The translations under genes were made by a program, and so were the position numbers. From an uncultured Spirochaetia bacterium (GTDB lineage: Bacteria; Spirochaetota; Spirochaetia; JABEVK01), in the NCBI GenBank assembly GCA_937960645.1, contig CALGPJ010000006.1:82868-146867 (forward strand): DNA of 64,000 nucleotides, in the 5' to 3' direction. The notes under the pieces were generated by a model, which saw only the letters and a list, made by a program, of their open reading frames with translations, was not told the origin of the DNA and did no database searches. Shown in pieces: positions 55,260-63,949 of this stretch. Position 1 is the stretch's first letter; each line of letters begins with the position of its first letter.

Positions 55260-56674
55260 CTCCCCCTTTCGGCCACATCGATGTACCGGAACAATTCCCA
55301 AACCGTCCACCCGAAAAGGGCAACCGTGACTCCCAGGAGGGCATACCCGCCGTTTTGAAAAGTCTGTTGAAAAGTATAACTCAAATTGACCTTGTCCAAC
55401 TGTTCCTGGGTGCGAAACCCCACCGGAGTGTCCAGGTAGTTTTTGAGATAATCGTTGGAAAGCTGAAGGTACTCGTATTCCAATCCCCGAAAAAGGATGT
55501 ACGTGAAAAAAGTGACGGTGAAGGAGCCCAGTGCCACGTAAAACCAGCTCCTGGCCTCATCTAATTTACGCTCCTCCGTGCTCGGCTCGAGATTGAGGTT
55601 GATCTCATTTTCCTCTGGCCAGATGGTTCGCGCGATAGGGTTGAAACCAGCCAATTCGATTTCGAGGTATTGAGGCTCGTCGGAACCCAAAATTTCCAAA
55701 GGCGTCAAACCGCGATACCTTCCCCCGATCCAGACCCTTGCCTCTGGAGGTTCGGTTATTATACGGCGTTTGAAGTTTTCTCTCGGTTGAAGCCGCCACT
55801 CTTTGACGAGGCTTTGCCCCCGGGCCACCTCGACCACCTCTTGAATGCTTTGATATCCCCCTGCCCTCACGATGACCCGAAAGGATCCGGGCTCCAGGAT
55901 GCCCAGATCGGCCGCTCCCAGACCGCGCAAACGACCATCGATCCAAATTTCGGCATGGGGAGGATCGGTGATCATTTTCAACCGAGACCAGGGACGGTTG
56001 AGCAGGCTGTTGGTAAGCCAGTCCTGCACCAGAGAAATTCGATCGAGTACCTCTTCGGGACTCATCCATTCTTCGTAGCGTCGTTCGGTCTTTCCGTTTT
56101 CATTCCACACTTCGACGACGATCCCCAGATAGTCCCGAACTTTCAGGAGTTTCGGAACGATCAGGAGGTTCAATCGATTTTGATGAAAAAGAGTGCCGGG
56201 ACTGGAACTGCCACTCAACAACTGGTTGGGTCCCGGGACCTGAAGGAGGGGAAGGCGTTCGGGAACCGAGACGATACTCAAATCGGCGTTTTCCAGTTGG
56301 AGACGTTCAGTCCTGACTTTTTGATAGTTTTGTTCGGCCTGAACGTAGGCACTGTTCGATGCATCCGAACGAAGTCTTATCCGATCGAGTTCCAAACGAG
56401 CGCTGGACTCCCGAGCCAAGAGTTGGGTTATTCGATTTTCGCGCGTCGATTTTTCCAAAAACAGCCGTTCACTGTCCTCCAATTGCCGCAATTCGTTGTT
56501 TAAATCCACTCGGCTGATAATTTCAGAAAGATTCTTCCCCAAGTTCTGCCATTCTGAATAACCCACGTCGAAGGGGAGAATGGCCCAACGATAGGCCAAA
56601 GGTCCCTGAATTTCCTGAGCGTAAAGTTTTCCCAGGATCAGAACGGCAAGAAGGAGGGATCGAGGACCTTTCAT
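55256..56674 (-). CDS. PEGA-domain membrane protein
   Basis: Two PEGA-like units (ITDPPHAEIWIDGRLRGLGA; ITEPPEARVWIGGRYRGLTPLEI), TM near C-terminus. Confidence 0.8.
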   Translation of the reverse strand: MKGPRSLLLAVLILGKLYAQEIQGPLAYRWAILPFDVGYSEWQNLGKNLSEIISRVDLNNELRQLEDSERLFLEKSTRENRITQLLARESSARLELDRIRLRSDASNSAYVQAEQNYQKVRTERLQLENADLSIVSVPERLPLLQVPGPNQLLSGSSSPGTLFHQNRLNLLIVPKLLKVRDYLGIVVEVWNENGKTERRYEEWMSPEEVLDRISLVQDWLTNSLLNRPWSRLKMITDPPHAEIWIDGRLRGLGAADLGILEPGSFRVIVRAGGYQSIQEVVEVARGQSLVKEWRLQPRENFKRRIITEPPEARVWIGGRYRGLTPLEILGSDEPQYLEIELAGFNPIARTIWPEENEINLNLEPSTEERKLDEARSWFYVALGSFTVTFFTYILFRGLEYEYLQLSNDYLKNYLDTPVGFRTQEQLDKVNLSYTFQQTFQNGGYALLGVTVALFGWTVWELFRYIDVAERGR

Positions 56675-57787
56675 GGTGTCGGCTGGTTATTTTCCAGCCA
56701 AAGGTGCCGCAGGTGAGCTTCGATAAAACTGTCCAAATCACCGTCCATCACCGCCTGAATGTTCGACGTTTCATGCTTGTTTCGATGGTCTTTGACAAGG
56801 GTGTAAGGTTGAAAGACGTAGCTGCGTATTTGATTCCCCCAGGCATTGTCGGATTTTTCCGGGGTCTTCTGCTCCCGCTGGGCGTCACGAAGAGCCTTGT
56901 AATGATCGTAAAGTTTGGAACGGAGAAGCTTCATCGCCAATTCCCTGTTTTTGATTTGGCTTCTTTCCTGTTGGCACGCCACGACGATACCGGTCGGAAT
57001 GTGGGTCATCCGAACGGCCGAATCCGTCTTGTTGACGTGTTGTCCCCCGGCACCGCTGGAGCGGTAGGTGTCGACTCTGATATCTTTTTCGTTGATTTCG
57101 ACGCTGATGTCGTCTTCGATGAGGGGGGTCACCGAGACGGCAGCAAAACTCGTGTGACGTCGCGCGTTCGCATCGAAGGGACTGATCCGAACTAACCGGT
57201 GCACACCGTTTTCGTTTTTCAAAAGCCCATAGGCATTTTCACCGGAAACTTGAATGGTGCAGCTCTTGATGCCACCCTCTGCTTCCTGGAGATCGAGCGT
57301 TTCCACCTTGAAACCACGGCGCTCACACCAGCGGGTATACATCCGCAAAAGCATCCCGGCCCAATCGCAGGCCTCGGTTCCTCCCGCCCCCGCCTGAATA
57401 CTCAAAAACGCCGGCGCTTTGTCTTCGGGTTCGTTGAGCATCTCCAGGATGTTGAGTCGTTCGTATTCCTTTTGAATTGCTTCGAGTTCCTCTTTGATGA
57501 ACACTTCCTGCGACTCATCACCTTCCGAAAGGGCCATCTCGTGGAGAACCTTGAGGTCAGCGGAACGGGAAATCAGTTTCTCCCAGGGTTCGATCTTGTT
57601 CTTGAGATTTCGGATGTCGGTGAGAACTTTTTCAGCCCGATCACGATTTCCCCAGAAATTGGGATCTTCGGTATGACGTTCGAGATCTTGTATCCGGATT
57701 TTCAGGTTATCCGGGTCAAAGACGCCTCCATGTTTCGTTGATTTGCGAATCGATTTCAGCAATTTTGTTGGTGAAATTTGTCAACAT
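56671..57787 (-). CDS. prfB: Peptide chain release factor 2, read through a programmed +1 frameshift
   Basis: GGQ motif SGAGGQHVNKTDSA and SPF motif. Real ATG at 57787 with AAGGAG SD; TGGAGG CGT CTT TGA C at 57730-57715. The track start (TTG 57762) is out of frame with the true N-terminus. Confidence 0.95.
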
Positions 57788-57814
57788 ATTGGCTCCTTGC
57801 TTTCGATGATTTTC

Positions 57815-58087
57815 TCATACAATGGTGGTGAGACGCTTCCACTTTTTTCCTTCGAGAGAGGTGATGACAAGGGTCTCCTCCATAGGATATTGGTAAAGCC
57901 TCAATCGGTCATAAAAATCCGTGATCTTATCCAGGTCCACTTTCATTCTCGCCAGGTTCTTTTCACTGAGAGTACTGGTCTCGTAAAGCTGGTTTTGGAT
58001 TTTCTTGAATCCGTACTGAATCAGAAGATCGTGGACCTTGATTCGACTGTCCTCGCTTCCAAGGTCGCAAGCACAGGCGACAAACAC
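57815..58087 (-). CDS. Cas2-like small protein (orphan)
   Basis: GTG start; MFVACACDLGSEDSRIKVHDLLIQYGFKKIQNQLYETSTLSEKNLARMKVDLDKI...MEETLVITSLEGKKWKRL resembles the Cas2 ferredoxin-fold pattern. Confidence 0.55.
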   Translation of the reverse strand: MFVACACDLGSEDSRIKVHDLLIQYGFKKIQNQLYETSTLSEKNLARMKVDLDKITDFYDRLRLYQYPMEETLVITSLEGKKWKRLTTIV

Positions 58088-59355: not shown

Positions 59356-60339
59356 TCAGGAATCCTTTCCCGTGAGGTATCTGATATACTGCCGGCGGCT
59401 CAAGAATTCTGCGTTTTCTCCTCTATCCCATCGGAAGGCAGCGTGGAAATCGTCGACGGATTCCCAACACCGTTCCTTCATGATCAAATCGATGTCCCTG
59501 AGCATCGTGGAGATGATTTCGAACTTGTTGAGATAGAGCGCCGAGACGATTTGAACACAGCTCGCCCCGGCAAGCAGGGCTTTGAGAACTTCTTCGGCCG
59601 AGTGGATTCCTCCGGAGGCGGAAACATCGACCCCTCGTCCCGAAAGTTGTCCGATCCAGCGAATTTTAGCGATGAACTCCTGGGCCGTGCTCAGCCTCTT
59701 TCCACCCGTCCAACTCAGCTGGTGAATATCGATATCGGGATGATAGAAACGGTTGAAGAGCGTCACCCCTTCGACACCTATTGCCGCCATTTGCTCGATC
59801 AGCCAGGTTAAGGAGCTGAAATACTGACTCAGTTTGACGATGAGAGGAAGTTTGACATCCTTTCGAACCTGACGGACGATATCGAGGACGAGGTTTTCTG
59901 CCCACCCCGGTGGCTGTGGATCGTTTGACCAGGGAGCGATATTCAGCTCCAGGGCATCCGCTCCGGCATTCTGCAGTAAAATGGCAAATTCCGACCATTG
60001 TGGTCGGTTTTGACAGTTCAAGCTGGCGATGACCGGAATATCGACTCTCGATTTTGATTCCTGGATCAGTCGGATGTAATCCATGGGGCGGATTTGAGTT
60101 CCAAAACTCTTCATGTAATCCCAGTTTTCCGGGTGGAGAGCTTCGATATTTCCGTACAAACCGCTTTCCGACATGAGTTGTTCTTCAAACAGACTTTTCA
60201 AAACCACAGCCGAAGCACCGGCCTTTGCCAGTTTTTCGATACCATCCGGGGTCGAAGTCAACGAACAGGCCCCCACCATGATGGGATGTTTCAATTCCAA
60301 ACCGGCAAATTTTGTTCCCAGACGCATGTCAGTGGACAT
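59356..60339 (-). CDS. Dihydroorotate dehydrogenase-like flavoprotein
   Basis: TKFAGLELKHPIMVGACSLT; PVIASLNCQNRPQWSEFAILLQNAGADALELNIAPW; VSASGGIHSAEEVLKALLAGASCVQIVSAL; AGGAGG SD. Confidence 0.85.
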   Translation of the reverse strand: MSTDMRLGTKFAGLELKHPIMVGACSLTSTPDGIEKLAKAGASAVVLKSLFEEQLMSESGLYGNIEALHPENWDYMKSFGTQIRPMDYIRLIQESKSRVDIPVIASLNCQNRPQWSEFAILLQNAGADALELNIAPWSNDPQPPGWAENLVLDIVRQVRKDVKLPLIVKLSQYFSSLTWLIEQMAAIGVEGVTLFNRFYHPDIDIHQLSWTGGKRLSTAQEFIAKIRWIGQLSGRGVDVSASGGIHSAEEVLKALLAGASCVQIVSALYLNKFEIISTMLRDIDLIMKERCWESVDDFHAAFRWDRGENAEFLSRRQYIRYLTGKDS

Positions 60340-60379
60340 CGGAGCCTCCTGAGCTCCATTCTAAGGCGAATTTTAATGC

Positions 60380-60413
60380 TTGACAACAAGGTTTTATGTG
60401 ATAATATTCACAT
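60380..60413 (+). promoter_or_regulatory. rnf operon promoter with a CRP/FNR- or Rex-like palindromic operator on the -10
   Basis: TTGACA (60380-60385), 16 nt, TAATAT (60402-60407); palindrome ATGTGA-TAATAT-TCACAT (60396-60413). Confidence 0.7.
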
Positions 60414-60803
60414 ATGCCGGTATATAAAGTACAATACACTGATTCGTCGACCATTCACGTCGAGGCACCGGTCATGTCGGCCTGTTCCAGCTGCCAACTT
60501 TGCCCGACCGCCAAGCGTACCCTCGTTTTGCCGAAGGGGCAGTATGAATATGCACTTCACGAGGAAATCGAATTGCGTCTCAGCAAAAAACAAATCGGCG
60601 GCCTGCTTTTTCTCGCCTTCGTGCTGCCAACCGTTTTGGGAGTTTTGGGCTTGTTTTTGGGAAATGCATTCGGCTTCACGGAGCCTGCTTTAACCTTGAC
60701 AGGATTAGCAGGAATGGGCCTGGGATGGATGGTGATGGCCCTGTACTCCAAACTTCGTGGTCATGTTTTTCTACCGCAAATCGTTGAGGGCCCTCATGCC
60801 TGA
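60414..60803 (+). CDS. SoxR-reducing system RseC-like membrane protein
   Basis: CSSCQLCPTAKRTLVLP followed by two TM helices; first gene of the rnf operon. Confidence 0.75.
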   Translation: MPVYKVQYTDSSTIHVEAPVMSACSSCQLCPTAKRTLVLPKGQYEYALHEEIELRLSKKQIGGLLFLAFVLPTVLGVLGLFLGNAFGFTEPALTLTGLAGMGLGWMVMALYSKLRGHVFLPQIVEGPHA

Positions 60804-61656
60804 GTACCTCCCCCTTCTGCTCATATCCCTGGGAATCACGGGCGTGCTGGGCCTGGCTGCCGCCACCCTTCTACATGTGCTGGCAAACAGGTTTTCGGTG
60901 GAAACCGACCCGCGCATCGGTCAGGTTCTGGAAGTGTTGCCGGGGATCAACTGCGGAAATTGCGGTCAACCCGGCTGCTCGAGCTTTGCGGAAACCCTGG
61001 TAAAATCTGCGTCGTCGGGAAGCCTCGGAAGTCTTTATTGTCCCCCCGGCGGCGAATCGGTGATGGCTCAGGTCAGTTCCCTTTTGGGGCTTGCCGTGAC
61101 GAAACGCGAACCTCTGGTAGCGCAATTACGTTGCGGGGGAACCTTGAAAACTGCCCCGGAACGTGTTCACTACGAGGGGCCAAAGCGTTGCGCCCTGGCT
61201 CATAATTTGAGCGCCGGCGGCAGCCTCTGCCCCTTTGGTTGTCTGCGGCTTGGGGATTGTGTCGTCAGTTGCGACTATGGGGCCCTCATCATCGACCCGG
61301 ACACGGGACTGCCCACCGTCATACCCGATAAATGCATCGCCTGTGGAGCCTGTGTGCGTGCCTGTCCGAGAAACCTCTTTCACCTCGTTCCTCGGGGCAG
61401 AAAAGAACGGCGAGTTCACGTGGCCTGCCAAAATCACGAAACGGCAGCAGTGGCCCTCAAACTTTGTAAATCCGCTTGTATCGCTTGCGGGAAATGCGCC
61501 GCTGTCTGCCCCGTCAATGCAATAACCGTAGAGAACAATTTGGCGACGATCGACCCCTTGAAATGCATTGCCTGCGGGAAATGCGTTCCGGTCTGCCCAA
61601 CCTCGGCGATCCAGAGCACCTTCCCGGTACCCAGGTCTTCGGAGAAAGAAGCATGA
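60796..61656 (+). CDS. rnfB: Rnf electron transport complex subunit B
   Basis: LPGINCGNCGQPGCSSFAETL; multiple CxxCxxCxxxCP 4Fe-4S motifs. Confidence 0.93.
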   Translation: MPEYLPLLLISLGITGVLGLAAATLLHVLANRFSVETDPRIGQVLEVLPGINCGNCGQPGCSSFAETLVKSASSGSLGSLYCPPGGESVMAQVSSLLGLAVTKREPLVAQLRCGGTLKTAPERVHYEGPKRCALAHNLSAGGSLCPFGCLRLGDCVVSCDYGALIIDPDTGLPTVIPDKCIACGACVRACPRNLFHLVPRGRKERRVHVACQNHETAAVALKLCKSACIACGKCAAVCPVNAITVENNLATIDPLKCIACGKCVPVCPTSAIQSTFPVPRSSEKEA

Positions 61657-62993
61657 ACACCCTAACCTTTCCCAGAGGGGGCATCCACCCTCCCGAATAC
61701 AAACTCAGCGAGCACGCTCCCATCGAAAATTTTCCCCTTCCAGAAATAGCGGTCATCCCTCTGTCGCAACATGTCGGAGCTCCTGCTCAGTGCCTCGTCA
61801 AAAAAGGCGACAAGGTCAAGGTGGGCACCCTTCTGGGGGAGGCCAACGGCTTCGTGAGCTCCCGTATTCATTCCAGCGTGAGTGGCACAGTGCTCAAAAT
61901 CGAAGATGTTCCGATGGCCAATGCCTACAAGGTCAGTGCCGTATTTGTGAAAGTTGAGGGAGATGTCTGGGAAGAGGGAATTCTACCGGGCAATCAACTG
62001 ATGGCCATCGGCAACATCACCTCGGAACAAATCATTCAAAAAGTCAAGGATGCGGGTATCGTGGGCATGGGAGGGGCGACCTTCCCGGCTCATATCAAGC
62101 TTCAGCTCCCTCCCGGTAAGAAACCCGACACCCTCATCATCGATGGTGCGGAATGTGAGCCCTTTCTGACGGCCGATCACCGGCTCATGTTGGAAAAGCC
62201 CGACGAGATTTTACGGGGTGTTCAACTCATGATGCGCGCTTTGGGGGTCCAACGCGCCATCATCGCCATCGAAGAGAACAAGCAAGACGCCATCGACATT
62301 CTCACGGCCCGAAGTGAAAACCTGCGCAGGGAGATCGCAGTGGTGTCGCTCCGGACCAAATATCCGCAGGGAGGCGAAAAACAGCTCATCAAGGCCGTCC
62401 TTAACCGTGAGGTCCCTTCGGGCAAGCTCCCGATCGACGTCGGCTGCATCGTCAACAACATCGGAACAGCCTTTGCCATTTACGAGGCTGCCCTCCTCAA
62501 CAAGCCCCTTTTCGAACGCATCGTCACGGTGACCGGTCCCAGAGTTCCCCGGCCCGGGAATTATAGGGTGCGCGTGGGAACCCCAGTGTCCCAACTGCTG
62601 ATGGCAGCCGGTGTGGAGCTGGACAAAGTTAGAAAACTGGTAGCCGGCGGTCCGATGATGGGAAAGGCCGGTTCGACTTTGGACTTTCCTGTCACCAAGG
62701 GGACGAGCGGTCTGCTTGTCTTTTACGATGCGGATTGCCAGCCACGTCGGGTTTCCCCCTGTATTCGATGTGCTCGCTGTGTTCAGGCATGCCCGATGGG
62801 ACTGGAGCCTTACCTGTTGGAAAAACTCGGGGAAAAAAACCGCCTCGAGGAAGCGGAAAGGCGTGGGATTATGGACTGCATGGAATGCGGTTCCTGTTCG
62901 TATATCTGCCCGGCCGACCGCCCCATTCTCGACTATATCCGCACCGCCAAGGCCAGAATCCTGAAAATTCGCAGGGAGAAAAAACCGACATGA
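61653..62993 (+). CDS. rnfC: Rnf electron transport complex subunit C
   Basis: ATG 61653 MNTLTFPRGGIHPPEYKL; GMGGATFPAHIKLQLP; CIRCARCVQACPMGLEP. Confidence 0.95.
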   Translation: MNTLTFPRGGIHPPEYKLSEHAPIENFPLPEIAVIPLSQHVGAPAQCLVKKGDKVKVGTLLGEANGFVSSRIHSSVSGTVLKIEDVPMANAYKVSAVFVKVEGDVWEEGILPGNQLMAIGNITSEQIIQKVKDAGIVGMGGATFPAHIKLQLPPGKKPDTLIIDGAECEPFLTADHRLMLEKPDEILRGVQLMMRALGVQRAIIAIEENKQDAIDILTARSENLRREIAVVSLRTKYPQGGEKQLIKAVLNREVPSGKLPIDVGCIVNNIGTAFAIYEAALLNKPLFERIVTVTGPRVPRPGNYRVRVGTPVSQLLMAAGVELDKVRKLVAGGPMMGKAGSTLDFPVTKGTSGLLVFYDADCQPRRVSPCIRCARCVQACPMGLEPYLLEKLGEKNRLEEAERRGIMDCMECGSCSYICPADRPILDYIRTAKARILKIRREKKPT

Positions 62994-63949
62994 GTCTTCT
63001 CACGATTTCCCAGAGTCCCCACCTCAAAGGCCCCATCACCACCCCAAAAATTATGTTGGCAGTCATCCTGGCACTGGTGCCGGGAATGGCCGTTCAATTG
63101 GTTTTTTACGGTCTTGCTTTCCTGCTGGTTCTGGTACAGTTCGTCGTGGCCTGCGTCGTCGTCGAATGGTCGATTCAAAAGTTTTTGCTCAGGGAGATTC
63201 CCTCCGTGACAGACGGCAGTGCCGCCCTGACGGGGGTGTTGCTGGCCCTCAACGTGCCGGCCACCCTGGGCACCTTTCCCATCGTGGCCGGAAGCCTCGT
63301 CGCCATCGGATTCGGCAAAATGGCCTTTGGGGGCATTGGCCGCAACCCCTTCAACCCCGCCCTTGTCGGAAGGGCCTTTCTCACCGCCAGCTTTCCGGTC
63401 GGCATGACCCAATGGCCAAAACCCTTTAGCCTCGGCATGGGCGGAACCGATGTCGTCACCCATGCCACCCCCCTGACCCGACTTCTGGAAGGTACCCAGG
63501 TGATCGGATGGCAGGAAAAAATCGCATCCGGTTTCGACCCCCTGATTTGGAACGCCGAGATCCTCGCCGCCGCCTACCTCGTCGGGGCCCTTTTGTTGAT
63601 ACTTCTTCGGGTGATCCACCTTGCCATTCCCCTGAGTTACCTGATGGGGCTGAGCCTCGTGACCTTGCCGGCATGGCTGGTTGCCCCCTCGCTTCAGGAC
63701 CCTCTTTTCCACATCGTCAACGGTGGGACGATGCTGGGAGCCTTCTACATGGCCACCGACTACAGCACCTCGCCGATGATTCCCAGGGCCATGATTTTAT
63801 ACGGATTATTGGGGGGCATTCTCTGTGCGGTGATTCGGCTCTGGGGAGCCTATCCCGACGGAGTTGCCTATTCCATCCTCATCATGAACGCCGCCGTCCC
63901 CCTGATGAACAGATACATGCAGCCCAGGCGATTCGGGAGCCAACCATGA
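62990..63949 (+). CDS. rnfD: Rnf electron transport complex subunit D
   Basis: ATG 62990; SVTDGSAALTGVLLALNVP; GRNPFNPALVGRAFL; YMATDYSTSPM. Confidence 0.95.
   Translation: MSLLTISQSPHLKGPITTPKIMLAVILALVPGMAVQLVFYGLAFLLVLVQFVVACVVVEWSIQKFLLREIPSVTDGSAALTGVLLALNVPATLGTFPIVAGSLVAIGFGKMAFGGIGRNPFNPALVGRAFLTASFPVGMTQWPKPFSLGMGGTDVVTHATPLTRLLEGTQVIGWQEKIASGFDPLIWNAEILAAAYLVGALLLILLRVIHLAIPLSYLMGLSLVTLPAWLVAPSLQDPLFHIVNGGTMLGAFYMATDYSTSPMIPRAMILYGLLGGILCAVIRLWGAYPDGVAYSILIMNAAVPLMNRYMQPRRFGSQP

Follow-up and report, generated by a model that had tools for sequence, protein, structure and literature searches.

A conserved inverted repeat over the rnf promoter of an uncultured spirochaete is a candidate Rex operator

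The 64-kb window (the whole stretch of DNA analysed, from the 2.23-Mb genome of an uncultured spirochaete) contains an rnf operon in the order rseC-like (PF04246), rnfB, rnfC, rnfD, divergent from a dihydroorotate dehydrogenase-like (DHOD-like) gene (Table 1). Directly ahead of the operon the sequence reads as an inverted repeat, ATGTGA-TAATAT-TCACAT (60396-60413), and a consensus scan returned the promoter TTGACA-N16-TAATAT with a TG one base 5′ of the -10 hexamer (60402-60407). The centre of the palindrome is itself the -10 sequence and the repeat directly adjoins the ATG at 60414-60416, as an earlier sequence-only reading of this DNA had claimed. The PF04246 match begins at residue 7 and model position 2, which favours 60414 over a downstream ATG at 60474 as the start of the first gene. 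From the standard spacing between -10 and +1, transcription is predicted to begin at 60414, on the A of this ATG, and the rnf mRNA is therefore probably leaderless. The operator extends from about -18 through the base preceding the predicted +1. The scan also gave a second, weaker promoter at 60407-60435 (TTCACA-N17-TACAAT), in which half of the operator serves as the -35; a protein bound to the operator would block this promoter too.

Table 1. Features of the rnf and DHOD-like region, in window coordinates
Feature	Position	Strand	Basis
DHOD-like gene	59356..60339	-	NF005741 above cut-off, PF01180; divergent from rnf, also in G001
DHOD-like gene promoter TTGTCA-N17-TAGAAT	60358..60386	-	Consensus scan; G001 mirror TTGTCA-N17-TATGCT
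-35 hexamer TTGACA, rnf promoter	60380..60385	+	Consensus promoter scan; identical in G001
Candidate Rex-type operator ATGTGA-TAATAT-TCACAT	60396..60413	.	Sequence; G001 counterpart TTGTGCTATCATTCACAT, same position
Extended -10 TG-A-TAATAT, rnf promoter	60399..60407	+	Within operator; G001 TG-C-TATCAT
rseC/mucC-like, first rnf-operon gene	60414..60803	+	Pfam PF04246, residues 7-117 from model position 2
rnfB	60799..61656	+	TIGR01944 above cut-off
rnfC	61653..62993	+	TIGR01945 above cut-off
rnfD	62990..63949	+	TIGR01946 above cut-off

The arrangement is kept in G001, the sole genome of the same genus that we compared, whose RnfB is 61% identical. Here the region reads TTGACA-N10-TTGTGCTATCATTCACAT-ATAATG, the -35 is identical and at the same distance, and the extended -10 again lies inside the operator. 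Between the window and G001, 16 of 20 bases of the operator region are identical, as are 5 of 10 in the preceding spacer; the -10 of the alternative promoter is less well kept (TACAAA). The rnf leader of G001 would measure about 3 nt. Outside the genus, a scan of RnfB-carrying loci in other spirochaetes and in other phyla gave no comparable site upstream of rnf. Lack of conservation was one of the conditions that the sequence-only reading had named as fatal to its idea, and the site kept in G001 speaks for the idea on this count.

All three exact copies of TGTGA-N6-TCACA in the genome fall in 5′ regions. Apart from the rnf site, one lies upstream of pyruvate:ferredoxin oxidoreductase (PFOR; L002, TIGR02176) and one upstream of the [FeFe]-hydrogenase (H-cluster) maturation operon TM1266-hydG-hydE-hydF (L003, L159; TIGR03959, TIGR03955, TIGR03956 and TIGR03918). 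The majority of the one-mismatch sites listed for the genome lie inside open reading frames; one precedes, by 94 nt, a NuoE/HydC-type gene (L157; PF01257) whose matches to the HoxE and NuoE models fall short of the cut-offs. Its family resemblance, and the site it has in common with the maturation genes, suggest that L157 encodes a hydrogenase subunit. An ATG 4 nt past the hydG-operon site (L003:455) was considered as the start of that operon and rejected, because the match to the TM1266 model sets in at residue 40 and the start used in relatives corresponds to L003:563. This ATG is probably not the true start, and the hydG-operon mRNA is thus probably not leaderless.

Moreover, the same targets recur in relatives. 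The motif precedes PFOR in G001, G003, G004, G005 and G006, and weakly in G002, the HydC-type gene in G001 and G003-G006, and TM1266 in G003, G005 and G006. In G001 a 2[4Fe-4S] ferredoxin gene (56 aa; L188, G001:C315:12716) carries the site TTGTGAATACTGTTACAA inside a TTGACT promoter; a standalone orthologue of this ferredoxin was not found in the window's genome, where weak matches occur inside larger proteins only. A matrix built from 26 sites of the family gives the half-site WTGTGA(A/T)T. The search for further copies that the sequence-only reading had proposed has thus led to redox genes, with exact or near sites ahead of PFOR, hydrogenase maturation, HydC-type and ferredoxin genes.

The regulators that this reading had named are encoded in the genome, as Rex proteins and one CRP-type protein, and the lack of such a regulator, the other condition that would have told against its idea, is thus not the case. 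Rex1 (contig C65, L005) and Rex2 (contig C40, L004), the latter encoded next to a coaBC-like gene, are intact and both score above the NCBIfam Rex cut-offs; among PDB entries, Rex1 aligns with chains of Rex at an E-value of 7e-29. In alignment both keep, within the recognition helix, the positions of Arg48 and Lys49, which read operator bases in Thermotoga maritima Rex (PMC8836258). The Rossmann GxGxxG is present as GMGKIG in Rex1 and GAGRLG in Rex2, and the NAD(H)-contacting Tyr100 position as ALAQY and ALLAY, respectively. A third PF06971 protein (L006, C9:55194) is without GxGxxG and appears as a degenerate Rex-like protein. Its gene lies directly upstream of a serC-like aminotransferase, and a near-palindrome, TGGTGAATATTTTCACAG, is located ~57 nt ahead of its PF06971 domain; in Caldicellulosiruptor bescii, a gene for a class V aminotransferase, adjoining that for a 3-PG dehydrogenase, is among the places bound by Rex (PMC6391272).

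No other evidence points to the regulator as strongly as the rex1 gene, since in six genomes the repressor gene is itself preceded by the motif of the regulon. In each of the six rex1-bearing genomes (G000, which is the window's genome, G001 and G003-G006) a related site precedes the ATG at a distance of 3-4 nt. These sites (L200-L205) are mostly asymmetric, with a strong TTGTGAA half and a weak ACAA half, as is that of the window's genome (TTGTGAAATACGGAACAA), and they adjoin the ATG, with no Shine-Dalgarno sequence visible in any of the six. Autoregulation of rex is frequent, although not universal.

Could the palindrome have arisen by chance in an AT-rich promoter, with no protein using it? 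With a first-order Markov model trained on the window and applied to both window and genome, 0.047 exact copies of TGTGAN6TCACA and 0.003 of ATGTGAN6TCACAT are expected in 64 kb, and the window holds one of the former, the rnf site. However, the three exact copies in the genome stand against 1.6 expected (reversed-pattern control, 0), an enrichment by number that is not significant genome-wide and that would suit chance. Function is therefore argued from the locations of the sites and their conservation rather than from their number. Every exact site precedes functionally linked operons, the rnf site is kept in G001 although half of the spacer positions have changed, and none of 3000 Markov shuffles of the sequence upstream of rnf gave a best score of 13.6 or higher, all of which makes chance scarcely credible. 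A protein of the CRP/FNR family, which would act here as a cyclic-nucleotide-dependent repressor of rnf, is likewise very improbable. TGTGA-N6-TCACA is the CRP core too, the E. coli CRP site AAATGTGA-N6-TCACATTT having 5-bp half-sites and spacing identical to those of the rnf site, and the genome encodes a single clear CRP-type protein (L007) with a cNMP-binding domain above the Pfam cut-off. The E. coli site works with CRP, in which R180, E181 and R185 are the residues that read TGTGA; L007, 27% identical to E. coli CRP (in an alignment that agrees with the PDB matches), has V, T and E instead and is thus unlikely to read TGTGA. CRP control was set aside on account of this recognition helix; moreover, the genes that carry the sites are redox genes and rex, not typical CRP targets. 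The FNR site TTGAT-N4-ATCAA is not matched by the rnf site. Together with the rex1 sites, the recognition helix of L007 bears out the preference for Rex over CRP/FNR in the sequence-only reading.

A closer question is which Rex protein acts at rnf. Rex2, above the Rex cut-offs and with its VRKDLS recognition motif retained, might be the main regulator, alone or with sites common to Rex1. In line with this, G002 (99%-complete; L220, L206) has no rex1 and only a Rex2-type protein, yet it carries a weak PFOR site, TTGCGCTTAATTTCACAT, which may be Rex2-controlled or a relic, so that some share for Rex2 is possible. However, G002 has no site upstream of its HydC-type gene, and the conserved, putatively autoregulatory sites are those at rex1, with none comparable in the stretch inspected ahead of rex2. 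As the main regulator of rnf, Rex2 is therefore improbable.

We propose, with a probability of roughly 0.86, that the palindrome is an operator of Rex1, by which rnf would be sterically repressed until relieved by NADH. Its core, TGTGA-N6-TCACA, is exact, and the site has three mismatches to the 18-mer TTGTGAA-N4-TTCACAA, at both ends and at one inner A. Rex is bound to DNA with NAD+ and released by NADH (PMC8836258), behaviour from which rnf would be expected to be repressed when NADH/NAD+ is low and expressed when it is high. At a low ratio a Rex1 dimer would cover the -10 and start region of rnf and, since the operator lies over the extended -10 and ends one base before the predicted +1, would exclude RNA polymerase. 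At a high ratio Rex1 would leave the site, and rnf would be expressed along with the other carriers of this site, namely PFOR, the NuoE/HydC-type gene and the hydrogenase maturation operon.

The proposed regulon resembles that of C. bescii, in which Rex controls hydG, FeFe hydrogenases, PFOR, a ferredoxin operon and rex itself through the consensus TTGTGAANNNNTTCACAA (PMC6391272). Sites are likewise found here at hydrogenase-related genes, PFOR, ferredoxin and rex. In contrast, rnf is not mentioned in that paper, and C. bescii is no spirochaete but a Gram-positive thermophile; moreover, binding by C. bescii Rex was tested by gel shift (PMC6391272), whereas the spirochaete sites are predicted from sequence. 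For Caproicibacterium lactatifermentans, a Rex site has been predicted ahead of rnfCDGEAB (PMC9600882). That site, too, precedes an rnf operon, but it has the clostridial form TTGTTAA-N4-TTAACAA and lies ~100 nt upstream, and the operon starts with rnfC (PMC9600882), in contrast to rseC-rnfB in the spirochaete. The Staphylococcus aureus Rex operator, TTGTGAAW4TTCACAA, has the core half-site TGTGA in common with the rnf site, whose half-sites are ATGTGAT and ATTCACAT; the target genes in S. aureus are others (PMC2883068).

Given the published Rex control of hydG, PFOR and hydrogenase genes and the earlier prediction at rnf, the rnf site would join a well-known control system, and the mechanism itself is already well known. 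In the literature searched we found no Rex studies in spirochaetes. What is gained is a Rex regulon, read from sequence, for an uncultured family of spirochaetes; in it rnf, PFOR and hydrogenase genes would all answer to the same NADH control. Since Rex normally releases its targets at high NADH, Rnf would be co-induced with a hydrogenase that presumably consumes NADH and ferredoxin, which raises the question of the direction of Rnf; it may run in reverse here, making reduced ferredoxin from NADH.

The promoter that the sequence-only reading had assigned to the divergent DHOD-like gene was returned by the consensus scan as well, with TTGTCA at 60386-60381 and TAGAAT at 60363-60358; the gene has a Shine-Dalgarno sequence, AGGAGG (CCTCCT at 60345-60350 on the forward strand). 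Co-regulation of this gene with rnf is plausible from the layout. The centre of the operator lies ~52 nt upstream of the predicted DHOD-like +1, too far for a bound protein to block the DHOD-like core promoter. Moreover, the -35 hexamers of the two promoters share 5 bp (60381-60385), and because these elements overlap, reciprocal control is no less likely than joint repression of both genes. A shared -35 would admit one polymerase at a time, so that Rex bound at rnf might even be to the advantage of the DHOD-like gene. Taken further, the intergenic region would form a redox switch in which Rex1, bound over the rnf -10, shuts rnf off and simultaneously frees the shared -35 for the gene of the DHOD-like flavoenzyme, the two genes responding reciprocally to NADH/NAD+, an arrangement that we put forward tentatively and consider unlikely.

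Two minor observations lie apart from the redox genes. A fliP-like flagellar gene (L156, G000:C58:41635) is preceded, at 46 nt, by the sequence CGTGACAAACGTCACA, which probably reflects another regulator or chance. Within the window, a prfB-like frame on the reverse strand (56671-58087) begins at TTG and may carry the programmed frameshift of RF2.
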